Positions 2,804 to 38,812 of a stretch of DNA of 64,000 nt are shown here, in pieces. The translations under genes and the position numbers were made by a program. Below the pieces are notes generated by a model. It worked only from the letters and a program-made list of their open reading frames with translations. It had not been told where the DNA came from and did not search any database. This DNA is from Virgibacillus necropolis (GTDB lineage: Bacteria > Bacillota > Bacilli > Bacillales > Amphibacillaceae). Within the stretch, counting starts at the first letter, position 1. Each line of letters starts with the position of its first letter. The stretch covers positions 1,736,001 through 1,800,000 of the forward strand of contig NZ_CP022437.1 of NCBI RefSeq assembly GCF_002224365.1, in the 5' to 3' direction.

Positions 2804-3285
2804 TAGTTTAACGAGGATTGCACAATTGCAGCGAATTTCTCTATATATTTTTTATCTGTTTCGTCAAATCGATTGGTGCTTGGACTATCGATATCTAATA
2901 CACCATAAATTTCATCGTTAACAACTAAAGGTACGACAATTTCTGATTGGCTGGCACTATCACATGCTATATGTCCAGGGAATGCGTTAACATCGGCAAC
3001 CACTTGGGTTTCTTTTGTTTCAACAGCAGTTCCACATACCCCTTTACCAGTTGGAATTCGAATACAAGCAGGAAGTCCTTGGAATGGACCTAGAACCAAT
3101 TCGGTATCTTTATATATATAAAATCCTACCCAATTCACATTTTCTAGAAATTGATTTAAAAGTGCTGATGCATTCGATAAATTGGCGACGTGATCAGGTT
3201 CATCGTTCAATAATGCTTTTACCTGTTGTAGCAACAATTCGTAATCCTTTACACGATCTCCTGAGTAACTACTTGTTTGAAACAT
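2803..3285 (-). CDS. msrC: free methionine-(R)-sulfoxide reductase
   Basis: GAF-fold enzyme (B. subtilis YtsP family) that reduces free methionine-R-sulfoxide, a repair and scavenging step under oxidative stress. The three family cysteines are visible: C74 in GLPACIRIP, C84 in GKGVCG and C108 in GHIACDSASQSEIVVPL, together with NWVGFY near residue 51. I start it at the second of two in-frame ATGs (3285): AAGGAAG then lies six bases upstream, whereas it would abut the first ATG at 3291. About 160 residues, normal for the family. It is transcribed away from yttP, convergent with dgcP. Confidence 0.92.
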   Translation of the reverse strand: MFQTSSYSGDRVKDYELLLQQVKALLNDEPDHVANLSNASALLNQFLENVNWVGFYIYKDTELVLGPFQGLPACIRIPTGKGVCGTAVETKETQVVADVNAFPGHIACDSASQSEIVVPLVVNDEIYGVLDIDSPSTNRFDETDKKYIEKFAAIVQSSLN

Positions 3286-3400
3286 ATACATCTTCCTTTC
3301 TTTGATAAAATTCGACTTGCCCCCTGCGTTAATTGTCGAGAAGAAATTGCAGGATTAAAGCTTACTCTGTCGTAAAATAACTATAAGGAGTTGAATTTCG

Positions 3401-4027
3401 ATGAAAAAGAATCCAACCAAGCAAAAAGTGGTAGATGCTGCGTCATCTTTATTTTTTCAAAAAGGCTTCCATGGTACTTCAGTTAGGGATATAGCGGACA
3501 AGGCCTCTGTAAATGTGTCACTAATTAGCTATTACTTTAAAGGTAAACAAGGCTTATTGGAGCATGCCGTAACAAACTACTATGAAACATATCTAACTAA
3601 AATGGAAGAAACACTACTAAAAGCGGAAACAGAATTACCTTTAAATAAACTGAAATTATTAATAGATACTATTATACAATATAAACAAAATAATCATCAA
3701 TTTTCTTGTTTTATCCATCGAGAGCTGTCTATTGACTCCATATTTGTACGGGAGATGGCTGTGACGTACTTGGCTAAGGAAAATTACTTTATAAGCAATA
3801 CATTTTTTGAAAGCTTACCAAAAAATTACAAAGGTAATACGGAACATCAATTTTTGCTCATGCAATTAAAAGGTATGTTGATCACACCTTATGTTTTACA
3901 AAATGAGTGGAAAAATCAGGTGGCCGGAAAAACATCACATGATTTATTTGCCCAAAACTACACAAAAGTTATTCATAAATGGTTAGATTTTATCACTACA
4001 GAAACCGTTCACTTTGTAAATCAGTAA
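3401..4027 (+). CDS. yttP: TetR-family transcriptional regulator YttP
   Basis: A 208-residue TetR/AcrR-type repressor. The N-terminal helix-turn-helix is clear at residues 10-55 (KVVDAASSLFFQKGFHGTSV followed by RDIADKASVNVSLISYYFKG). The ligand-binding C-terminal half is unassignable to a particular effector. A good AAGGAG site precedes the ATG. The dgcP-ytsP-yttP-rpsD association is the B. subtilis one. The target genes are not evident here: I found no clear palindrome in the short interval between 3285 and 3401. Confidence 0.85.
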   Translation: MKKNPTKQKVVDAASSLFFQKGFHGTSVRDIADKASVNVSLISYYFKGKQGLLEHAVTNYYETYLTKMEETLLKAETELPLNKLKLLIDTIIQYKQNNHQFSCFIHRELSIDSIFVREMAVTYLAKENYFISNTFFESLPKNYKGNTEHQFLLMQLKGMLITPYVLQNEWKNQVAGKTSHDLFAQNYTKVIHKWLDFITTETVHFVNQ

Positions 4028-4120
4028 AAAATACGTAAAATCATCAATTTATTTGTAATTTTTTAGCCAAAAATGCTATTTACATGGTATCATTAGTATA
4101 ATAATCTCAGAATTAACTTT

Positions 4121-4250
4121 AAGAGGTTGTCCAAAAAGTCACCAAATGATAAACCGCGAATTTCTTTGTTGCGCAGTTTTTCCGGTTCTCAAAATCTTCG
4201 CGCCTTGAACTTCTTGTTTCTAATTTGCCGACTTTTTGAACATGCACTTT
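4121..4250 (-). repeat. interspersed repeat family A, copy 1
   Basis: Starts AGAGGTTGTCCAAAAAGTCACC and ends with the sequence complementary to the left end of copy 2 (GACTTTTTGAACATGCACTT), so it lies in inverse orientation to the copies at 11770 and 27147. It is about 25 bases shorter and lacks the central hairpin of those copies. No coding capacity. It fills most of the 313-base yttP-ezrA gap; the remaining bases hold only the ezrA ribosome-binding site and no convincing promoter. Confidence 0.8.
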
Positions 4251-4339
4251 AATTATTAAACTTAGATGGTACCTGTTCTTGGAGAGAATCTATAAAAAAG
4301 AACATCCTCTTATTCAGGAATATAGTTAGGAGGCTTTAA

Positions 4340-6031
4340 ATGGCATATATCATTGGAATCGTACTCGTTATTATTGCACTAATTATTGTCGGACTCATTT
4401 TACGTAAAAGAATATATGATGTTGTTGATCGGCAAGAAAGCTGGAAAATGGACATTATGAATCGTAATACCGCTTCACAACTCGCCCAGATTAAAAAATT
4501 AAACCTTTCAGGGGAAACACAAGAAAAATTTGAATCCTGGAAAGAACACTGGGAATACATTGTGACAAAGCAACTTCCGGATATAGAAGAATATTTATTT
4601 GATGCAGAGGAAGCCGCAGATCGCTATCGTTTTCCTACAGCGAAAAAAACATTACGAAAAGTTGAACAAACATTACAATCTATTGAAAAAGATATTGAAA
4701 AAATGTTACTTGAGCTAGATGAACTAATAACGTCTGAAGAAACAAGTAGAAAAGAGATAAAAGGGTTAGAACCTGAAATAAAAGGATTAAGAAAAAAACT
4801 ATCACAAACACGTTATCAATATGGTAAAGCTGAAGCGCGCTTTGACGTAGAACTTGATGAAATAGAAGAATATCTTCGTAGATATCGTGAATTGACTGAA
4901 TCAGGAGATTATCTCGAAGCCCAACAGATTGTGGATAATCTAAAACTGCAAATAGAGAATTTACAAGTTGAAATGGATGAGTTCCCAGAATTATATAAAG
5001 CGTGTAAGGAAATACTACCAAATCAATTAGATGATTTAATTTCAGGAATAAGGGATATGAAAGAAAGTGGTTATCGTATCGAGCACCTTGGACTTGAAAA
5101 AGAAATCCGAAACTATCAAGGACGATTATTGGATTGTGTCAATTCTGTTGAAAAAGGGAATATAACTATTGCAAAAGAAACAATAACGGAAATTGATGAA
5201 CGAATTAAAGATATGTATCAACTATTGGAAAATGAAGCAATAGCTAAAAGTTACATAGAAAACAAAATACCAATGTATCGTCAAAAAGTTGATAATATAG
5301 AAACGAAATTTCAACATACTAAATCGGAAGTGGATATGTTAAGAGAAACATATTACTTTGAAGATAGTGACGTGGAGAAATATTTGATACTCGAAAAAAC
5401 GATTACACTCCTAAAAAAACAATTTGTCGAACTATCAGCAAACCTAGAGGATCAAGATGTATCCCATTTGCAGATACGCGATAAGCTAGATGATAATTTG
5501 CAGCAAATAGAATCGTTAACACAACAACATGATGATTTTATAAAGTTCATTCATAATCTGAGAAAAGATGAACTAGAAGCAAAACAGAAATTAGAAGAAA
5601 TGAAAAACCAGGTATACAACACGATTCGAAAGCTGAAGAAAAGTAATGTACCAGGTGTACCAACTTTCATCTGGAATTTGGTAGAGGCTACTAGTGAAAA
5701 AAATGATCGTGTGTTAAAAGCGCTAGAATCAAAGCCACTTGATATGGCTGTAGTACAACGTGCACTAACGGAGGCAAATAAAAGTGTTGATCATGTTGTA
5801 GAGCAAACTGATTTCATTTTAGAACAGGCACATTTAACAGAACAGGTCATTCAATATGCAAATAGGTATCGTAGTAGGTATCCCCTTCTGGCTGCAAAGC
5901 TTGCAGAATCTGAGCGATTATTTAGATCATACGAATATGAGTTATCCTTAGAACATGCCGCAAAAGCAGTAGAAGAAGTGGAGCCTGGATCACTAAAACG
6001 TATTGAAGAATATAAAGAGGTATCTAGTTAA
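4340..6031 (+). CDS. ezrA: septation ring formation regulator EzrA
   Basis: Negative regulator of FtsZ ring formation and a coordinator of division and wall synthesis. The architecture is diagnostic: one N-terminal membrane helix at residues 2-20 (a run of Ile, Leu and Val after MAYIIG), then a long acidic and basic coiled coil that fills the cytoplasmic remainder. The DRQESWKMDIMNRN segment after the helix is typical of EzrA. Its length of 563 residues equals the B. subtilis protein. The ATG has a good AGGAGG site seven bases upstream. It precedes the nifS-like/thiI pair, as in B. subtilis. Confidence 0.97.
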   Translation: MAYIIGIVLVIIALIIVGLILRKRIYDVVDRQESWKMDIMNRNTASQLAQIKKLNLSGETQEKFESWKEHWEYIVTKQLPDIEEYLFDAEEAADRYRFPTAKKTLRKVEQTLQSIEKDIEKMLLELDELITSEETSRKEIKGLEPEIKGLRKKLSQTRYQYGKAEARFDVELDEIEEYLRRYRELTESGDYLEAQQIVDNLKLQIENLQVEMDEFPELYKACKEILPNQLDDLISGIRDMKESGYRIEHLGLEKEIRNYQGRLLDCVNSVEKGNITIAKETITEIDERIKDMYQLLENEAIAKSYIENKIPMYRQKVDNIETKFQHTKSEVDMLRETYYFEDSDVEKYLILEKTITLLKKQFVELSANLEDQDVSHLQIRDKLDDNLQQIESLTQQHDDFIKFIHNLRKDELEAKQKLEEMKNQVYNTIRKLKKSNVPGVPTFIWNLVEATSEKNDRVLKALESKPLDMAVVQRALTEANKSVDHVVEQTDFILEQAHLTEQVIQYANRYRSRYPLLAAKLAESERLFRSYEYELSLEHAAKAVEEVEPGSLKRIEEYKEVSS

Positions 6032-31295: not shown

Positions 31296-31324
31296 TTGAG
31301 TCTTGGACCTTTCAACTGTATAAT
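31296..31324 (+). promoter_or_regulatory. sigma-A promoter of ytoI
   Basis: TTGAGT (31296-31301), 17-base spacer, perfect TATAAT (31319-31324). An 11-base inverted repeat brackets the -10: CTTTCAACTGT at 31309-31319 and ACAGTTGAAAG at 31347-31357. Because the -35 is at 31296, the ytoI start must be further downstream. Confidence 0.75.
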
Positions 31325-31370
31325 AAAGACCAAAATATACACTAGTACAGTTGAAAGTCGGTGGAATAAA

Positions 31371-32678
31371 GTGACAACGAAACACGAGCAAATTATTCAA
31401 CATATAGGAACGTTGACGATTGGCAATAAAATATCGGTTCGCCAAGTAGCAAAAGATTTAAATGTAAGTGAAGGTACTGCATATAGAGCGATTAAGGAAG
31501 CAGAAAACCAAGGGTTAGTAAGCACAATTGAGCGGGTCGGAACCATACGAATTGAACGGAAAAGCAAAGAAAACTTTGAGAGCTTGACCTTTGCGGAGGT
31601 AATTAATGTTGTTGATGGACAAGTTTTAGGCGGTCAAAGTGGTTTATACAAAACATTGAGTAAATTCGTAATAGGTGCTATGCAACTAGATGCAATGATG
31701 CGCTATACGGAACGAGATTCTTTACTAATCGTTGGTAACCGAATAGAGGCGCATGAGCTTGCATTGCAGGAGGGAGCTGCAGTTCTTATTACTGGCGGTT
31801 TTGATACCGAAGAACATATTAAACGACTTGCAGACGAAAAAGAGATTCCAATTATGTCCACAAGCTATGATACCTTTACAGTTGCTGCAATGATCAATCG
31901 CGCCATTTATGACCAATTGATAAAGAAAGAAATTGTTGTTGTAGACGATATATGTACACCTGTTGAACATGCTTATTATTTGGATTCAAAAGATCTATTG
32001 GAAAAATGGTATACACTTAATGATCTGTCGACTCATTCTAGATTTCCTGTTGTTGATGAAAAACTGCGAGTCATGGGAATGGTTACCTCAAAAGATATAA
32101 TCGGGAAGAATGGTCAAACCCCAATAGAAAAAGTTATGACAAAGCGCCCACATGTTGTCCAAACAAAGACCTCATTAGCATATGTTGCCCATATGATGGT
32201 ATGGGAGGGTATTGAGGTTATGCCTGTTGTAGATCAATCGAATAAATTACTAGGTGTTGTATCAAGGCAAGATGTGTTAAAAGCGCTGCAGCAAATTCAG
32301 CGACAACCACAAGTAGGCGAGACGATAGACGATATAATCGGCCGAAACTTAGAATCACTTGACACTGAACAGACGATTTTTCAAGCTAATATTACACCAC
32401 AAATGACAAACCAACTGGGTACATTATCAAATGGCGTTTTCACTTCGCTAATTTCGGAGGCAAGCAGTCGACTGTTATTGCAGGCTAAAAAGAGTGATTT
32501 GGTAGTGGAAAATATTACTGTTTATTTTATGAAGCCTGTACAAATAGACAGTAAGATTATTATTAAACCAAAGTTGCTTGAAGTTGGAAAAATATATGCA
32601 AAAATAGATATTGAGGTATTCAATAATAAAAAAATGGTTGGAAAAGGTTTATTGATGGCTCAACTGATTGACAGGTAG
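31371..32678 (+). CDS. ytoI: YtoI: HTH-DRTGG-CBS-hotdog regulatory protein
   Basis: 435 residues from GTG 31371. Domains in order: winged or GntR-like helix-turn-helix (residues 1-70, ISVRQVAKDLNVSEGTAYRA), DRTGG domain (80-190), two CBS repeats (195-310, with STHSRFPVVDEKLRVMGMVT and EGIEVMPVVDQSNKLLGVVS), and a C-terminal MaoC/thioesterase-like hotdog domain (FMKPVQIDSKIIIKPKLLEV). It thus joins DNA binding with nucleotide and acyl-type ligand sensing. A longer frame from 31296 would include its own promoter and is rejected. The promoter palindrome is a candidate for autoregulation. Confidence 0.9.
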   Translation: MTTKHEQIIQHIGTLTIGNKISVRQVAKDLNVSEGTAYRAIKEAENQGLVSTIERVGTIRIERKSKENFESLTFAEVINVVDGQVLGGQSGLYKTLSKFVIGAMQLDAMMRYTERDSLLIVGNRIEAHELALQEGAAVLITGGFDTEEHIKRLADEKEIPIMSTSYDTFTVAAMINRAIYDQLIKKEIVVVDDICTPVEHAYYLDSKDLLEKWYTLNDLSTHSRFPVVDEKLRVMGMVTSKDIIGKNGQTPIEKVMTKRPHVVQTKTSLAYVAHMMVWEGIEVMPVVDQSNKLLGVVSRQDVLKALQQIQRQPQVGETIDDIIGRNLESLDTEQTIFQANITPQMTNQLGTLSNGVFTSLISEASSRLLLQAKKSDLVVENITVYFMKPVQIDSKIIIKPKLLEVGKIYAKIDIEVFNNKKMVGKGLLMAQLIDR

Positions 32679-32708: not shown

Positions 32709-32729
32709 ACAAAGGTTTAAAAAGATTCA

Positions 32730-32854
32730 CTTAGGGAACAGAATATTATGATAACTATTTCTGTTAAATTAAAGCTGAAACGTGGAGGAGTGATTCTTTC
32801 CCTAAGATACAGGTTTTTTAGGTTGTTTTTTACAGGGTTTTAAAAATTAGGGAA
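32730..32854 (+). promoter_or_regulatory. TTAGGGAA motifs upstream of the ATP-grasp gene
   Basis: CTTAGGGAA (32730-32738), its inverted form TTCCCTAAG (32798-32806) and a direct TTAGGGAA (32847-32854) occur in the 190-base leader. The outer pair could form an RNA hairpin enclosing 59 bases or a looped operator. No convincing -35/-10 was found. Confidence 0.3.
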
Positions 32855-32874: not shown

Positions 32875-34089
32875 ATGGAAGAAAATAACATACGAACTGC
32901 GTTAATTGGTTGGAGTCTGCAGGCGATAGAAGCAATTGATAAAATGGAACGCCCTTTCGTTGTGGTAGGTCCGCCAGATTTTGAAGGTTATGCTTCTGAG
33001 CATGGAATTAATTTTGTCGGTTGGGAATTTGACAGAATTAATGAAAAGTCTAATGATCTTTATACCCAATTGCATGAAATGGGAGTAGAGATAGCAGTCC
33101 CGTTATATGAAGAAACTGTAGAGTGGGCTGGTGCCTTAAATGCCCGTTTTCAGGATGATATGCGAATTTTTAACCGTTCGCTGTTACTGCGAGATAAAGG
33201 GTTGATGAAACGGAAGGCACAAATGGCTGGTATCCATGTCGGGGTCTTTGAAGAAGCGCGAAACAAAGATGATGTGAACCGGTTTCTAAAACGAGTGAAT
33301 GCAGCATTATTGAAATTGGATGGAGATCCAAATGAACCGATTCATTTAAAACCAATGGATGCTGCAGGGTCAGTTGGTCATCGTATGATAAGTACTGCAG
33401 AAGATGTTGACAATCTTTCGGAAGAGGACTTTCCAGGGTTGTTGGAAAGCCATTTGGACGGTCAGGAATTTTCTTGCGAGGTATTCGTCCATAATGGTAA
33501 AATACAATTTCTAAACATTACGGAATATGTCCGCTTAGGCCATTCCAACTTTGTGCCAGCCTCTCCTGAACTAGAAGCAAAGCGCCCACTAATTCGCAAG
33601 GCAGTCGAGGAATTAATAGAAGCTTTTCAAATTAAAAATGGTCTCATCCATCCTGAGTATTTTATAACTTCTGATAATAAACTACATTTCGGGGAGGTTG
33701 CTGCGAGGGTTCCTGGTGGTCACATTTTTGAATTAATTGAGCGAGCTTATGGCTTCAGCCCGTTCCAAGCTCAGGTATTGTGTAGTGATCCAGAAACGAC
33801 AGATGAAGAACTAGAAGCTTTTTTTCCAAAAGAATCGGAAGCAAAAGGGTATGCTGGTAACCTGATGGTTTACCCGCATGTGAGATTTATCGAACGTCTA
33901 AACTTGCCTGATGGTCTTGAGGAACACCCTTATTTTGAAAAGCATGATATGTATATTCCACAGACAAGCAAAGTAGCGGAGCGAGTTGGATTTGGAAATC
34001 ATTATGGGACGATTTTCTTTTTCGGTAAGGATAGCGCGACCATCAATGAATTGTTGTTGGAATATGAGACATGGGATTTCTACTTGTAA
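32875..34089 (+). CDS. ATP-grasp ligase of an accessory cassette
   Basis: 404 residues from ATG 32875 (AGGAGTG eight bases upstream). The fold is of the carbamoyl-phosphate-synthase/biotin-carboxylase-like ATP-grasp type: an N-terminal Rossmann-like part (TALIGWSLQAIEAID), a central ATP-binding lobe with IHLKPMDAAGSVGHRMI and LESHLDGQEFSCEVFVHNGK, and the metal and phosphate site GEVAARVPGGHIFELIERAYG. It should make an amide or peptide-like bond through an acyl phosphate; substrates unknown. The first papain-like gene starts 38 bases later, so the two are probably cotranscribed. The cassette is absent from this position in B. subtilis. Confidence 0.85.
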   Translation: MEENNIRTALIGWSLQAIEAIDKMERPFVVVGPPDFEGYASEHGINFVGWEFDRINEKSNDLYTQLHEMGVEIAVPLYEETVEWAGALNARFQDDMRIFNRSLLLRDKGLMKRKAQMAGIHVGVFEEARNKDDVNRFLKRVNAALLKLDGDPNEPIHLKPMDAAGSVGHRMISTAEDVDNLSEEDFPGLLESHLDGQEFSCEVFVHNGKIQFLNITEYVRLGHSNFVPASPELEAKRPLIRKAVEELIEAFQIKNGLIHPEYFITSDNKLHFGEVAARVPGGHIFELIERAYGFSPFQAQVLCSDPETTDEELEAFFPKESEAKGYAGNLMVYPHVRFIERLNLPDGLEEHPYFEKHDMYIPQTSKVAERVGFGNHYGTIFFFGKDSATINELLLEYETWDFYL

Positions 34090-34127
34090 TTAACTAACGT
34101 GTATTAGCTGAAAAGGAGAGCGTATTG

Positions 34128-36074
34128 ATGTCGAATCTACTACAACAGAACATGGAACGATTTTCGAAATCTTTTCGCTCGCTGGAAGAAGCCAAATCTT
34201 TTGCAAAGAAACTACATCGAGGGAACTTACTACAGCAGGCCAACCGCTTGTTGAATACGCAGGAAGGAATGGATCACTTATACCATTGCGCAAACGAGTT
34301 TGATGATGCAGGCTTATTTTTAAATACACCATGGGATAATCCTTCAAAACTACAGCCGAAACTCGTTGCTGAAACACTTAAATCCAAAACACCTGATGCA
34401 ACGATGGAAATACTGAGTGAATTACGGATGCTAGCAATTGCTAAAGGGAATTGTCGAAGTCAACAGGTTACAGCAAAGGAGGCTTCCCATTTCCTAAATG
34501 AGGTAATGGCCAGCAATGTTGATCTGCTGTTTCCTGATGAAACTGAGGCTTCTCGCATGGAAGTGGGGGACGAGTTGAAGCGGGCCAAATTGCTTGTTCA
34601 ATTTTTGGCAAATCATCTTTCTTTAAAAACAATTCTTCATAGCCTTCTTGAAGAAATTGAGCGGTTGGCGGTACAGCGCCCTATTATGGTGAATCATATT
34701 ATTGATTTAATTTCGGCTGCTAAAAAATCCGGGTATTCAGAAGTTAGTCAAGGTGATCAAGAAAAATTGAAGAAATATGACGATGCAATAACGGGTCCCA
34801 CGCTGCTAAGTAGACAGGTTTCTAATCGGTTAGGATATGAAGAAATAATCAAAGAGAAAGATCCTGAAGTCCAAAAAAGAGAAGCTGAAGGTTTTGGAAG
34901 CTCGATGAAACAGACTGGTCTTGTTTGTCCCATCCATGCAGAGCTATTACGTCATTTGAGTCAATCCCACCCTGAGCTGATTGCCACAGCTTTAGCGCTT
35001 AACTCAGAAGGTAAGGCTAATCTTAATGTCAACATGACGCTTGTACAGAAAATCATTGAAATAGCCATTTATCCAGCGACAAGTCAGTCCATCTACGGTC
35101 TTGCCCGATTTTTAGAACGTGGTGTATTGTCCGTTCCTTCTGTAGCTCCTGTATTGCGTCGTCTTATGGTACTCCCAATCCATTTTGATGTAAGTAAAAA
35201 ACTAAAGCGTAAAGATGTAACTGCAAACGGTGTCCTTATAGCAGGTGTAATAAGTGCTTTAGGTCAACCTTTAGGCATAGGGCAAGGATTGAATCCAACG
35301 TGTCAGTCCGCACGGGGGATTAGTCTATGGGCTCAGCATGCACCAACATATTTGTTGGAACTCGTTGAAGGCGCTGCAAGAGATAGGGGTATTGTAATCG
35401 GTTTGGAAGGGCTTCCGTTATATTCCAGTTTGCTGTCTGGAGGCCTTGCCCCAAATTTAAATACTGAGCTTGATCCAGTTTCATTGATTCTTGTTCCACA
35501 TCTCGATCGCATATACAGCGAAATGATGACGCGTATGTTGTATAGAGGCGAAGATGGTCATAAATGGGTAAATCCAGCATTTTATGGTCACTGGGTGTTA
35601 CAAGGTTTCACTGCAGTCACGGATTCATACACTAGAATAGTTAGTAATTATGAAGGATTTGTCCGATGTTTTTACGCCACTCATCATCCCGACTATAATG
35701 GGGGACACGAGCTAATTTACCCAAATCCGGTCGGTATTTTTGTGACCAATGTTCATGCCCATTTTCTTGGACTACATGCCATATCGATTCAGCGCATTAA
35801 AAAGGACCCTCGGGGGAAATGGCGGATTTATTTCTATAATCCTAATAATGATGGAGGTCAGGACTGGGGTCAAAACATTCATTGTTCGATTACTGGAAAT
35901 GGAGAAGAAGAGGGTGAATCCTCACTGCCTTTTTCTCAATTTACTGCTCGATTGTATGCGTTTCACTATAACCCCCTTAAGCTAGGTCAAACGCAGGCTG
36001 TACCTAGGGAAACTCTTGCTAAGGTGGAAAAGCTGGCTCAAGAAAGTTGGGGAAGAAACTATACGTGGGCATAA
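34128..36074 (+). CDS. large protein with papain-like Cys-His-Asn arrangement, paralog 1
   Basis: 648 residues from ATG 34128 (AAGGAGAG seven bases upstream). The first 370 residues are mostly helical, with no membrane segment or signal peptide. The C-terminal 270 look like a papain-fold catalytic domain: GQGLNPTCQSARGISLWAQ places Gln386 six residues before Cys392, as Gln19-Cys25 in papain; LGLHAISIQRI gives His550; YFYNPNND gives Asn571. I do not recognise the family. Peptidase, transglutaminase-like or amidotransfer chemistry is possible. It ends NYTWA, about ten residues shorter than paralog 2 (36344-38326), because a family C repeat begins exactly at the stop codon. Confidence 0.8.
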   Translation: MSNLLQQNMERFSKSFRSLEEAKSFAKKLHRGNLLQQANRLLNTQEGMDHLYHCANEFDDAGLFLNTPWDNPSKLQPKLVAETLKSKTPDATMEILSELRMLAIAKGNCRSQQVTAKEASHFLNEVMASNVDLLFPDETEASRMEVGDELKRAKLLVQFLANHLSLKTILHSLLEEIERLAVQRPIMVNHIIDLISAAKKSGYSEVSQGDQEKLKKYDDAITGPTLLSRQVSNRLGYEEIIKEKDPEVQKREAEGFGSSMKQTGLVCPIHAELLRHLSQSHPELIATALALNSEGKANLNVNMTLVQKIIEIAIYPATSQSIYGLARFLERGVLSVPSVAPVLRRLMVLPIHFDVSKKLKRKDVTANGVLIAGVISALGQPLGIGQGLNPTCQSARGISLWAQHAPTYLLELVEGAARDRGIVIGLEGLPLYSSLLSGGLAPNLNTELDPVSLILVPHLDRIYSEMMTRMLYRGEDGHKWVNPAFYGHWVLQGFTAVTDSYTRIVSNYEGFVRCFYATHHPDYNGGHELIYPNPVGIFVTNVHAHFLGLHAISIQRIKKDPRGKWRIYFYNPNNDGGQDWGQNIHCSITGNGEEEGESSLPFSQFTARLYAFHYNPLKLGQTQAVPRETLAKVEKLAQESWGRNYTWA

Positions 36075-36241
36075 GAAAAGTGCAAGCGCCCTGGTAAGCC
36101 AAGGCAAGTTTAAGAAAACCTCATTGGGATGGCTATTTATCACAAAGAGATTCATCTTAACATTCGATCCAGGATATCAACACTCATTCGGATATATCAA
36201 CGTTCAATGGTCTAGGCGTTGGAGCTAGATTGATAATCGCC
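36072..36241 (-). repeat. interspersed repeat family C, copy 2
   Basis: Inverse orientation to the copy at 23559: begins CATAAGAAAAGTGCAAGCGCC on the plus strand and ends GGCGTTGGAGCTAGATTGATAATCGC in two parts matching the other copy's left end. The TAA within its first bases is the stop of the preceding gene. Interior differs in length and sequence from copy 1. Confidence 0.8.
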
Positions 36242-36270
36242 AAAATTTTATATTTTCTTTGCTCTAAATA

Positions 36271-36314
36271 AAAAGACCCCTCTCCTGGTTTAAAACCAGG
36301 AGAGGGGTCTTTTT
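36271..36314. terminator. strong bidirectional terminator between the papain-like paralogs
   Basis: An 18-base perfect stem (AAAAGACCCCTCTCCTGG and its complement) with A- and T-runs at either side, one of the strongest in the window. Confidence 0.95.
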
Positions 36315-36343
36315 AATTAAGTAGTAACTAGACAATTTTTTAG

Positions 36344-38326
36344 TTATAAATTATTAGGATATAAAGCATTTAAATCCATCCATGTGTAATTTTTACCCCA
36401 ACTCTCACGAGCGAGAGAGGTGATCCTATCGATGATCTCCTGACTAACATCTTGAAGATCTCCCATTTCATTCGGATTGTAATGGAATGCATATATACGC
36501 GAGGCGAATTCATGAAAGGGTAATGATGCCTCTCCTTCCTCTTCTCCGTGGGCGCGTACTGTTGAACGGATTCCCTGTCCCCAATTTTGGCCACTATCAT
36601 TGTTTGGATTGTAAAAATATACACGATATTGCCCTTTTGAATCACAAGCAATCCGTTGAATCGAAATTGCATGAAGACCTAGTAAATCAGCATTGGCTGT
36701 TGTCACGAAAGTACCTACTGGGTTCGGGTAAATAAGTTGATGCTGTTCATTGTAATCTGGATGGTGGGTTGCATAAAATAACCGTACAAAATTGGCAAAA
36801 TCAGTAACCCCACCTAAGGAATTGACCGCCGCACTGAATTCGTTGGATATCCATTGTCCATAAAAAGCTGGATTCGTCCATTTATGACCATCTTCGCCTC
36901 GAATGGCTACACGTCTCATCATATCATCGTAAATACGATCGAGGTGGGGAACTAATATTAACGAGACTGGATCAAGTTTTTTGTGCAGATCAGGTGCCAA
37001 TCCGCCAACTAAGTTCTCAGAGTGTATTTCAATACCTTCAAACATCATATCAATATCTCCATCTCTTCCAGCCCTGGCAATTAGCTCCATTAAATACCCA
37101 GGGTCATGCTGCGCCCAAAGGCTTATGCCCCGAGCTGATTGACATGTAGGATTCAGACCTTGCCCAACACCTAATGGTTGACCAAATACGCTAATCAATC
37201 CCGCCGTCAAAATCCCCGAAGCCGTCATTTCTTTCGGATAATCCTTCGAAATAAATAACATTTCCTCTACATCTGGAAGCAATTCTAATTCAAGCATTCT
37301 TTCAAAGCCTGGAATCACAGGGGCAGATGATAATACACCACGTTCGAGCATGAGAGCAAGGCCATATAACGTCTGACAGGTAGCCGGGTGAACTGCAACA
37401 TCTATTAGCTTATTGATAAGCGATAAATGCTCGTTCAAATTTGCTTGCCCTTTTTCACTTAACGCAAGTGCTTTAGAAATTTTTTCTGGTTCGGTGTCGT
37501 TTAGAAAACGAATAAAAACTGCATGGTGGGGGGCTACCAGACCAGTCGCACGCATAATTTTGGCTAGCTCTTTTGCTTCTTTATTAATTTCCTTGGTTGC
37601 TAAATCTTTCAGTTCACTTCCATATTCCGTTATATTGTTGTATTTTTTGCTTAATGTGGAGGGGGCGTTTAGTGCATTGACGTAATATTCAATTGCTTTT
37701 CGTTCACTCGCTTTCAAATCCGAGGTAAGCATGTTTTTCGCATGTTGGATGATAGACACAATACGATCCACCATAATCGGACGCTGCGCCGCCAAACGGT
37801 CAAGTTCATCCACTAACTTGGTTGAGAAGGCACTTAATGATAATTCTGAACCCAAGAACTTAAACAGGGTATGCCCCCTTGTTAAACTATCCCCTTGTTG
37901 AACTCTTGTTTCTTCTGTTTCTTTAGGAAATAATAGATCAAGGTTTAATGCCATTACCTGATTCAAATAATCATTAGCGAATTCTGCTGTAGCCTTGGGA
38001 TGCTTGTAATGGTTGTTTGCTATAGCAAGCATACGTAACTCACTAAGTACTTCAAAGAGAGGATAAGGGTCGTCTGCCTTAAACGAGCCACCAACTAAGT
38101 TTGCTTGTAATTTGGACGGGTTCTCCCAGGGGCTTCCGTTAAAAATCCCAGCCTGATCGTATTGTTCGGCTAATTCAAGCAGTGTTGCCATACCATTTTC
38201 ATTGTCCATTATAGTTGACGCTTGTTGTAATGCTTGTTCCTTTAACAGAGTAGACTCTTGACTTTTTAATTCATCAAGGGTTTGAATAAATTGCTCATTT
38301 GCAGTTCCGTCAAATTCTGACTTCAT
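36344..38326 (-). CDS. large protein with papain-like Cys-His-Asn arrangement, paralog 2
   Basis: 660 residues from ATG 38326; GAGGG lies eight bases upstream, and its own promoter reads TTGAAT-N17-TATTAT (38389-38361). The longer frame from 38389 is unsupported. Very similar along its whole length to the gene at 34128: GQGLNPTCQSARGISLWAQ is identical (Gln389, Cys395), then LGLHAISIQRI (His552) and YFYNPNND (Asn573). The Cys-His and His-Asn distances agree with the paralog within one residue. The last ten residues (DLNALYPNNL) are missing in the other copy. It is convergent with that gene and separately controlled. Confidence 0.8.
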   Translation of the reverse strand: MKSEFDGTANEQFIQTLDELKSQESTLLKEQALQQASTIMDNENGMATLLELAEQYDQAGIFNGSPWENPSKLQANLVGGSFKADDPYPLFEVLSELRMLAIANNHYKHPKATAEFANDYLNQVMALNLDLLFPKETEETRVQQGDSLTRGHTLFKFLGSELSLSAFSTKLVDELDRLAAQRPIMVDRIVSIIQHAKNMLTSDLKASERKAIEYYVNALNAPSTLSKKYNNITEYGSELKDLATKEINKEAKELAKIMRATGLVAPHHAVFIRFLNDTEPEKISKALALSEKGQANLNEHLSLINKLIDVAVHPATCQTLYGLALMLERGVLSSAPVIPGFERMLELELLPDVEEMLFISKDYPKEMTASGILTAGLISVFGQPLGVGQGLNPTCQSARGISLWAQHDPGYLMELIARAGRDGDIDMMFEGIEIHSENLVGGLAPDLHKKLDPVSLILVPHLDRIYDDMMRRVAIRGEDGHKWTNPAFYGQWISNEFSAAVNSLGGVTDFANFVRLFYATHHPDYNEQHQLIYPNPVGTFVTTANADLLGLHAISIQRIACDSKGQYRVYFYNPNNDSGQNWGQGIRSTVRAHGEEEGEASLPFHEFASRIYAFHYNPNEMGDLQDVSQEIIDRITSLARESWGKNYTWMDLNALYPNNL

Positions 38327-38360: not shown

Positions 38361-38389
38361 ATAATAATACCCCAACTAATCTTATTCAA
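38361..38389 (-). promoter_or_regulatory. sigma-A promoter of papain-like paralog 2
   Basis: On the minus strand TTGAAT (38389-38384) and TATTAT (38366-38361), spacer 17, about 35 bases before the start codon. Confidence 0.65.
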
Positions 38390-38454
38390 ACCTGTGGCGG
38401 GTGGTCACCCCCTTTATCCTATATATTTTTGGGCGAAAATTCAGATATTTTAAC

Positions 38455-38518: not shown

Positions 38519-38812
38519 TTATTCATTATTAAGTCGTTTCCATTCATTTTTGTAGTGCCCTGCTTCCTTGATACCGCGTGATAGTTGCATTACACCCAGT
38601 ATTAGAAATGCAATACCTACAAATAATGAAATCCGTGTTTGATAAAATATGTACTGGTTTATTGCAAAAAATAAAATGAAACTTCCAAGACAAATTCTCG
38701 ATTTTGCGTTAAGATATGCTTGGGTAAGGTTATCGTCACTTTTTAAAATAGCTACTTTATAGTATACATAAAATACAAGTGATAATGTAATTAGAATTGG
38801 AAAAATAATCAT
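38519..38812 (-). CDS. ytpI: YtpI family membrane protein
   Basis: 97 residues with three membrane helices (about 2-20, 42-60, 62-80). The AKSRICLGSFILFFAINQ segment is the YtpI family hallmark. Function unknown. Position between ytoI and nrnA, and opposite to nrnA, agrees with B. subtilis except for the accessory cassette now lying between ytoI and ytpI. The start ATG at 38812 shares a 120-base divergent region with nrnA. Confidence 0.88.
   Translation of the reverse strand: MIIFPILITLSLVFYVYYKVAILKSDDNLTQAYLNAKSRICLGSFILFFAINQYIFYQTRISLFVGIAFLILGVMQLSRGIKEAGHYKNEWKRLNNE

Follow-up and report, generated by a model that had tools for sequence, protein, structure and literature searches.

A conserved pair of an ATP-grasp ligase and a papain-signature protein in Virgibacillus necropolis and its possible role in the formation of an amide-type solute

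The stretch analyzed here, in the following called the window, comprises 64,000 nucleotides of the Virgibacillus necropolis genome (contig NZ_CP022437.1, positions 1,736,001 to 1,800,000). Between the genes ytoI and ytpI it carries a gene encoding an ATP-grasp ligase, followed in tandem by a gene for a 648-residue protein with a papain-type signature, here named papA, and in convergent orientation by the gene of a 660-residue paralog, papB. An earlier note on this DNA had described the same arrangement, which is confirmed by the reading frames and by the domains of the flanking genes. The following features were assigned:

31296..32678, plus strand: left flanking ytoI-like gene with DRTGG, CBS and 4HBT domains; its exact start is unsure
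32715..32739, plus strand: predicted sigma-B-like site upstream of the ATP-grasp gene (GTTTAA, 13 bases, GGGAAC), scoring 11 of 12 against the sigma-B consensus
32875..34089, plus strand: ATP-grasp ligase gene, 404 amino acids, ATG start; starts and stops of the frames were checked
34113..34118, plus strand: ribosome-binding site AAGGAG of papA, read from the sequence
34128..36074, plus strand: papA, 648 amino acids, ATG start, protein carrying the papain signature, N-terminal part helical
35301..35303, plus strand: papA codon of Cys392, the proposed nucleophile, invariant in 109 rows
35775..35777, plus strand: papA codon of His550, the proposed catalytic base, invariant in 109 rows
35838..35849, plus strand: papA codons 571-574, Asn-Pro-Asn-Asn, invariant in 109 rows; the third residue is proposed to be Asn571 or Asn574
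about 36269..36315, both strands: strong hairpin between the convergent papA and papB, assigned as a bidirectional terminator by its folding energy
36344..38326, minus strand: papB, 660 amino acids from ATG, orphan-branch paralog of papA and convergent to it
38367..38391, minus strand: predicted sigma-B-like site upstream of papB (GTTTGA, 13 bases, GGGTAT), again 11 of 12 against the consensus
38519..38812, minus strand: right flanking gene ytpI (PF14007, E=6e-30)

The ligase stop codon and the papA ATG are separated by 38 bases, which include the AAGGAG, and the first sigma-B-like site lies 160 bases 5' of the ligase start. PapA and PapB share 50-51% identity. An own promoter had been suggested for papB; a site is indeed predicted upstream of this gene and can now be specified as sigma-B-like (38391-38367, minus strand). 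TTG at 38389 is a possible alternative start of papB, yet it overlaps the promoter-like site. The very strong shared terminator proposed in the earlier note holds up: for the hairpin at about 36269-36315 the two strands give folding energies of -39.3 and -40 kcal/mol (z < -9), and none of 200 shuffles was as good. A simple terminator scan did not include it in its list, and scans for sigma-70 promoters and terminators returned site numbers no higher than in shuffles. Rfam matches below threshold at about 36218-36407 were rejected as an overlap with this hairpin.

The inserted genes are an accessory insertion between ytoI and ytpI, as the earlier label had it. The ytoI neighborhoods of twelve genomes from the same family were compared: ytoI is followed by ytpI in ten, in the other two only nrnA was found, and ligase and papA are absent from all 12 stretches. 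In one genome of the same genus (L131), about 40 bases separate ytoI from ytpI and the site is empty. The GC content amounts to 40-43% over the insert (33-38 kb) compared to 33-39% in its surroundings.

Comparison across genomes defined the stable unit, which consists of the ATP-grasp gene and papA; that this module is real is near certain. Within 299 genomes of the order, 47 carry a pap gene, the same 47 carry the ligase and both are missing from the other 252 at the cut-offs applied (E <= 1e-40 for the ligase); all of the 48 ligase matches adjoin a pap match by their coordinates. Among 80 named loci, which are the best 80 of at least 462 pap relatives and for this reason lean towards the window sequence, the ligase gene lies directly upstream of pap in 76, with a median gap between the frames of 22 bases and a maximum of 104. 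The four loci without ligase (L081, L083, L084, L087) hold orphan paralogs with 59-60% identity to PapB. Over 93 pairs, ligase and pap distances correlate with 0.80, compared to 0.18 as the top of 2000 permutations, which is partly explained by the species history common to both. The earlier note had treated the three genes as one cassette. The gene neighborhoods bear this out for ligase and papA, which co-occur in the 47 of 299 genomes, whereas papB is not part of the conserved unit and falls into an orphan branch.

This branch was seen in a quick tree with some long branches, for which near-identical rows were merged before counting (pap from 133 to 109, ATP-grasp from 111 to 91). Its 109 distinct pap rows divide into 93 with and 16 without adjacent ligase, the latter made up of a branch of five containing papB and of 11 shorter paralogs of about 610 amino acids. 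The four other sampled members of the papB branch have no ATP-grasp gene next to them. papB is an optional extra that happens to stand next to the pair in the window genome. A short paralog was present in the fetched flank of ten of the 80 named loci (L009, L014, L036, L051, L056, L057, L064, L065, L069, L075), located downstream of the pair, at times directly and at times several genes off.

The one-to-one adjacency with its median gap of 22 bases would also suit a complex in which pap withdraws ammonia from an amide such as glutamine and the ligase builds it into a carboxamide. A separate amidotransferase, AsnO, performs such a step in the synthesis of N-acetylglutaminylglutamine amide (NAGGN), according to the available part of PMC8070244. 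Pap has no match to a glutaminase family, however, and orphan pap paralogs with no ligase nearby would want an adjoining partner, so that an amidotransferase pair appears decidedly unlikely.

In a draw of 398 genomes across the phylum, which included few members of this order, pap was detected in the window's own genome only. More distant named carriers include Herbivorax, Melghirimyces and Paenibacillus. The pair was also found on a replicon of Halomonas sp. PA16-9, with 55.5% identity for the ligase and 41.9% for pap (L119, NZ_CP040452.1, 10693-14031). This gammaproteobacterial replicon of 1.83 Mb is listed as a plasmid, and its pap frame diverges from the family near the end, perhaps by sequencing error or decay. 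A further record, titled Chryseobacterium sp. ISL-80 (L014, Bacteroidota label), holds the pair, the linked GNAT and also a short paralog. It nests among Bacillus sequences in the pap tree, and its label is possibly mistaken. A unit that is patchy, horizontally moved and placed between housekeeping genes could belong to anti-phage defence or another conflict system. But PADLOC returned nothing for the three window proteins at E up to 1, the PHROG search gave nothing meaningful, neither the phage collection nor the viral contigs contained a relative, and no defence neighbors were noticed, no systematic search for them having been made. We regard a function of this kind as extremely improbable.

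For the ligase, the assignment to the ATP-grasp enzymes rests on PF13535 (E=5e-10, 39.6 bits compared to a curated cut-off of 27). Among solved proteins, the ligase profile retrieves the L-amino-acid ligases 4wd3 (E=9e-13) and 3vot (BL00235, E=1e-5), which belong to the same ATP-grasp branch, and the metal-site motifs are aligned. The metal-binding glutamates E268 and E281 and the following arginine R285 (numbering of row 1 of ligase alignment A4) are invariant in 30 rows and aligned with 4wd3. The predicted structure, built on an alignment of four sequences, is of low confidence over most of the protein. The enzyme resembles L-amino-acid ligases and is predicted to form amide or peptide bonds; it differs from these distant kin in its strict pairing with pap. 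Ligases of this type also occur in antibiotic pathways, and the NCBIfam search returned a weak match to the dapdiamide synthase DdaF. Together with the patchy distribution and the variable insertion sites this would fit a secondary metabolite or siderophore-like peptide pathway and not a stress solute, but in the clustered flanks neither a transporter nor a carrier protein nor a synthetase is conserved next to the pair, and within genera like g55 and g63 retention looks vertical. We consider such a pathway quite unlikely.

The pap family is large, with at least 462 relatives, and is not covered by the libraries searched: no convincing match was obtained in Pfam, NCBIfam, PHROG, PADLOC or the PDB sequences. 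The earlier note had not recognized the paralog family, and no match to a characterized family has come up since. BtrH_N was found at one locus only. cGAS was rejected as a relative; its weak PDB matches (E about 0.3) were gone with a catalytic profile of 44 rows. What pap does possess is a papain-type signature in the order Gln-x5-Cys, His-Ala and Asn-x5-Trp-Gly, which it shares with the papain-like cysteine peptidases of clan CA. The pattern, composed after the alignment had been inspected, matches 88 of 90 pap frames, none of 1242 other frames and none of 20000 shuffles, and it is present in five of five genuine C1 domains. Gln386, Cys392, His550, Asn571 and Asn574 are kept in all 109 distinct rows, and Asn574 of PapA has the papain spacing to Trp-Gly. 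These residues point to a papain-type active site. The term papain-like, used in the earlier note, is supported by this signature and not by homology or fold, because the comparison with C1 profiles failed, the model of the catalytic part is poor and Foldseek, by which the note had hoped to identify the family, returned nothing at E <= 0.001 on the low-confidence model. From clan CA peptidases pap further differs in its large helical N-terminal part.

As modeled, this helical part could bind a protein partner, and the weak Foldseek matches are helical-repeat proteins. The ATP-grasp enzyme might accordingly add an amino-acid or peptide tag to a protein, from which pap removes or transfers it under stress control; multiple pap paralogs per genome would suit several targets, and the clustered flanks show no conserved peptide or substrate gene next to the pair. 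Against protein modification speak the nearest solved ligases, which join free amino acids, the linked AblB-type enzymes described below, which indicate free diamino acids, and the want of any Foldseek match at E <= 0.001. The earlier note had left the choice between a peptide-type metabolite and protein modification; the findings are best read as pointing to a small amide-type metabolite, and protein modification is an unlikely rival.

In favor of a small metabolite are the acetyltransferases found next to the pair. For the analysis of ACETYLTRANSFERASE partners the 80 loci were sorted by pap clade. In clade I an AblB-type acetyltransferase stands beside the pair in 12 of 13 loci and in three arrangements: in ten loci it precedes the pair on the same strand, in L080 it follows on the same strand, and in L058 it follows in convergent orientation. 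All four linked AblB-type proteins tested scored above the TIGR03827 cut-off. The sole clade-I pair without AblB (L078) has an aldehyde dehydrogenase and a dehydrogenase frame upstream (2896-5605); the latter presumably resembles lysine dehydrogenase, its NCBIfam match being weak. Clade II carries a different GNAT, divergent from the ligase, in 24 of 29 loci, and the genes farther out differ among genera.

AblB was detected in 159 of the 299 genomes, namely in 40 of 47 with and 119 of 252 without the pair (P=9e-7, kinship ignored). In a tree of 47 AblB rows one branch (support 100/99) is composed exclusively of sequences from genomes carrying the pair (23 of 23): 17 linked copies, five unlinked ones and the second copy of G088. 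The remaining 24 rows fall outside, including all ten genomes without the pair that score worse than 1e-80. This tree, which followed an earlier one of 48 rows, omits most of the stronger-scoring AblB of genomes without the pair, second copies such as one in G229, the linked L054, L071, L072, L076 and L079, whose genome copies were already in, and the below-cut-off L184-L187. KamA scores above its cut-off in 27 of the 47 genomes with the pair, in two of ten genomes with linked AblB and in none of five with an unlinked copy of the branch. The two positive genomes, G045 and G306, each have a second AblB outside the branch, and three of the ten hold only a KamA relative below the cut-off. Because KamA is mostly lacking in the genomes carrying it, the AblB of this branch probably acts on an amine other than the KamA product.

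The best explanation for these findings, to which we assign a probability of about 45%, is a stress-linked pathway making an N-acetylated, amide-linked amino-acid solute, and a pathway of this class is plausible. Its core would be the ligase and pap, supplemented by optional pap paralogs and, in many relatives, by an acetyltransferase. The ligase would join an amino-acid carboxylate to an amine with release of ADP, and pap would form a cysteine thioester on the same compound, from which the acyl group may then be transferred or hydrolyzed. The acetyltransferase, where present, would cap a free amine, and the compound carrying it is probably a diamino acid that lysine aminomutase does not make. 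The product may serve as a protectant against osmotic or general stress, and the module may also turn it over; a role of pap in synthesis is slightly likelier than one in turnover alone, because the ligase was not found without pap. We infer these chemical steps from what was computed, i.e., the pairing, the kinship of the ligase, the signature, the linked acetyltransferases and the sigma-B-like sites of a minority. The pair of a bond-forming and a bond-breaking or transferring enzyme suggested in the earlier note is retained in part: the ligase is near L-amino-acid ligases and always beside a papain-signature protein, while a peptidase or transferase activity is predicted from the signature. 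Doubtful in our view is a more specific version, in which the papain-signature enzyme would be the obligate synthetic acyl-transfer partner of the ligase in a compatible-solute module, with an own AblB subfamily that does without lysine aminomutase in one clade and a solitary ectoine synthase closing a ring in the product of L045 and L082.

In these two loci ectC follows directly 3' of the pair (L045:10006-10404, L082:9993-10379), and in L054 genes encoding betaine aldehyde dehydrogenase and choline dehydrogenase lie downstream. The flanks of 14 loci were inspected by eye, the remainder was clustered. Sigma-B-like sites, defined by a score of at least 11 of 12 against the consensus, precede 11 of 75 ligase genes and eight of 24 clade-II GNAT genes compared to 16 of 776 other genes, and both transcripts of the window have a predicted one. 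Judging by their names, many of the named carriers derive from saline or alkaline sources. The window genome encodes a single ectoine synthase, at a site remote from the insertion (G000:C1:1182365-1182739). At gathering score, a search of eight of the 80 loci with Rfam yielded just two purine riboswitches, both in L082 (15116-15219 and 17134-17235), away from the pair and probably unrelated to it.

Several observations weigh against a stress-solute pathway. The osmolyte neighbors are picked cases from 80 flanks that were mostly clustered and not annotated individually, and EctC shows no significant enrichment (18 of 47 genomes with the pair, 69 of 252 others, P=0.16). Sigma-B-like sites precede none of 12 linked ablB genes and none of 90 pap genes, the overall shift of the sigma-B score for the ligase is weak (P=0.047) with related rows that are not independent, and some carriers are soil bacilli. 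Neither an AblB-type enzyme nor the clade-II GNAT is found in 38 of the 80 loci, those resembling the window included, and the window genome itself has no AblB above the cut-off, as is the case for six more genomes with the pair. For pap there is no sequence or profile match to any papain family, with hhalign probabilities of 4-9% against five C1 domains, and its model, built on an alignment of seven sequences, is confident in the helical N-terminal part and mostly below 50 in the catalytic part (predicted local distance difference test, pLDDT).

Known systems share single elements with the module. The KamA/AblB pathway to N-epsilon-acetyl-beta-lysine has the acetyltransferase in common with it (four of four above cut-off), but the AblB of the module forms a separate branch, eight of ten genomes with linked AblB have no KamA above cut-off, and KamA forms no amide and requires no ATP-grasp enzyme. 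Glutathionylspermidine synthetase is of the ATP-grasp type. It stands beside a papain-like CHAP amidase (PMC10318531, available part) in a single fused protein, whereas pap has no CHAP match. Synthesis of the osmoprotectant NAGGN comprises acetylation, peptide-bond formation and amidation, and one gene cluster (asnO-ngg and an aminopeptidase) unites an acetyltransferase activity, the step that forms the peptide bond and a gene for a peptidase, a logic similar to that proposed for the module. As described in the available part of PMC8070244, however, a single protein both acetylates and ligates, and it works alongside an asparagine-synthetase-like amidotransferase and a glutamyl aminopeptidase; in the module the GNAT is a protein of its own, which some loci lack, and the other partner is a papain-signature enzyme. 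No NAGGN model appeared in the NCBIfam list of the ligase at E up to 1, and no search aimed at ngg or asnO was made. We recognized no paper on the ligase-pap pair in the literature searched, whose coverage mostly leaves out subscription journals. The word ATP-grasp occurs once, in the reference list, in the available part of a classification of papain-like proteins (PMC10318531), and a 2010 study describes a new papain-like family in peptide operons, which may or may not be the pap family (PMC2922099, available part). The module is undescribed in this literature and new in its parts and partners.

The module provides a testable candidate for the role of solitary EctC proteins, whose function is called unresolved in the available part of PMC5924519. 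Its genes are likewise candidates for the acetylated lysine and ornithine solutes of Halobacillus halophilus, for which acetyl-lysine and acetyl-ornithine were reported (PMC2412884, PMC3995056), and of a Planococcus strain with N-epsilon-acetyl-lysine (PMC4685198), as far as the available parts of these papers go. If true, the constant pairing of a papain-type enzyme with an amino-acid ligase would extend the range of uses known for papain-type chemistry.

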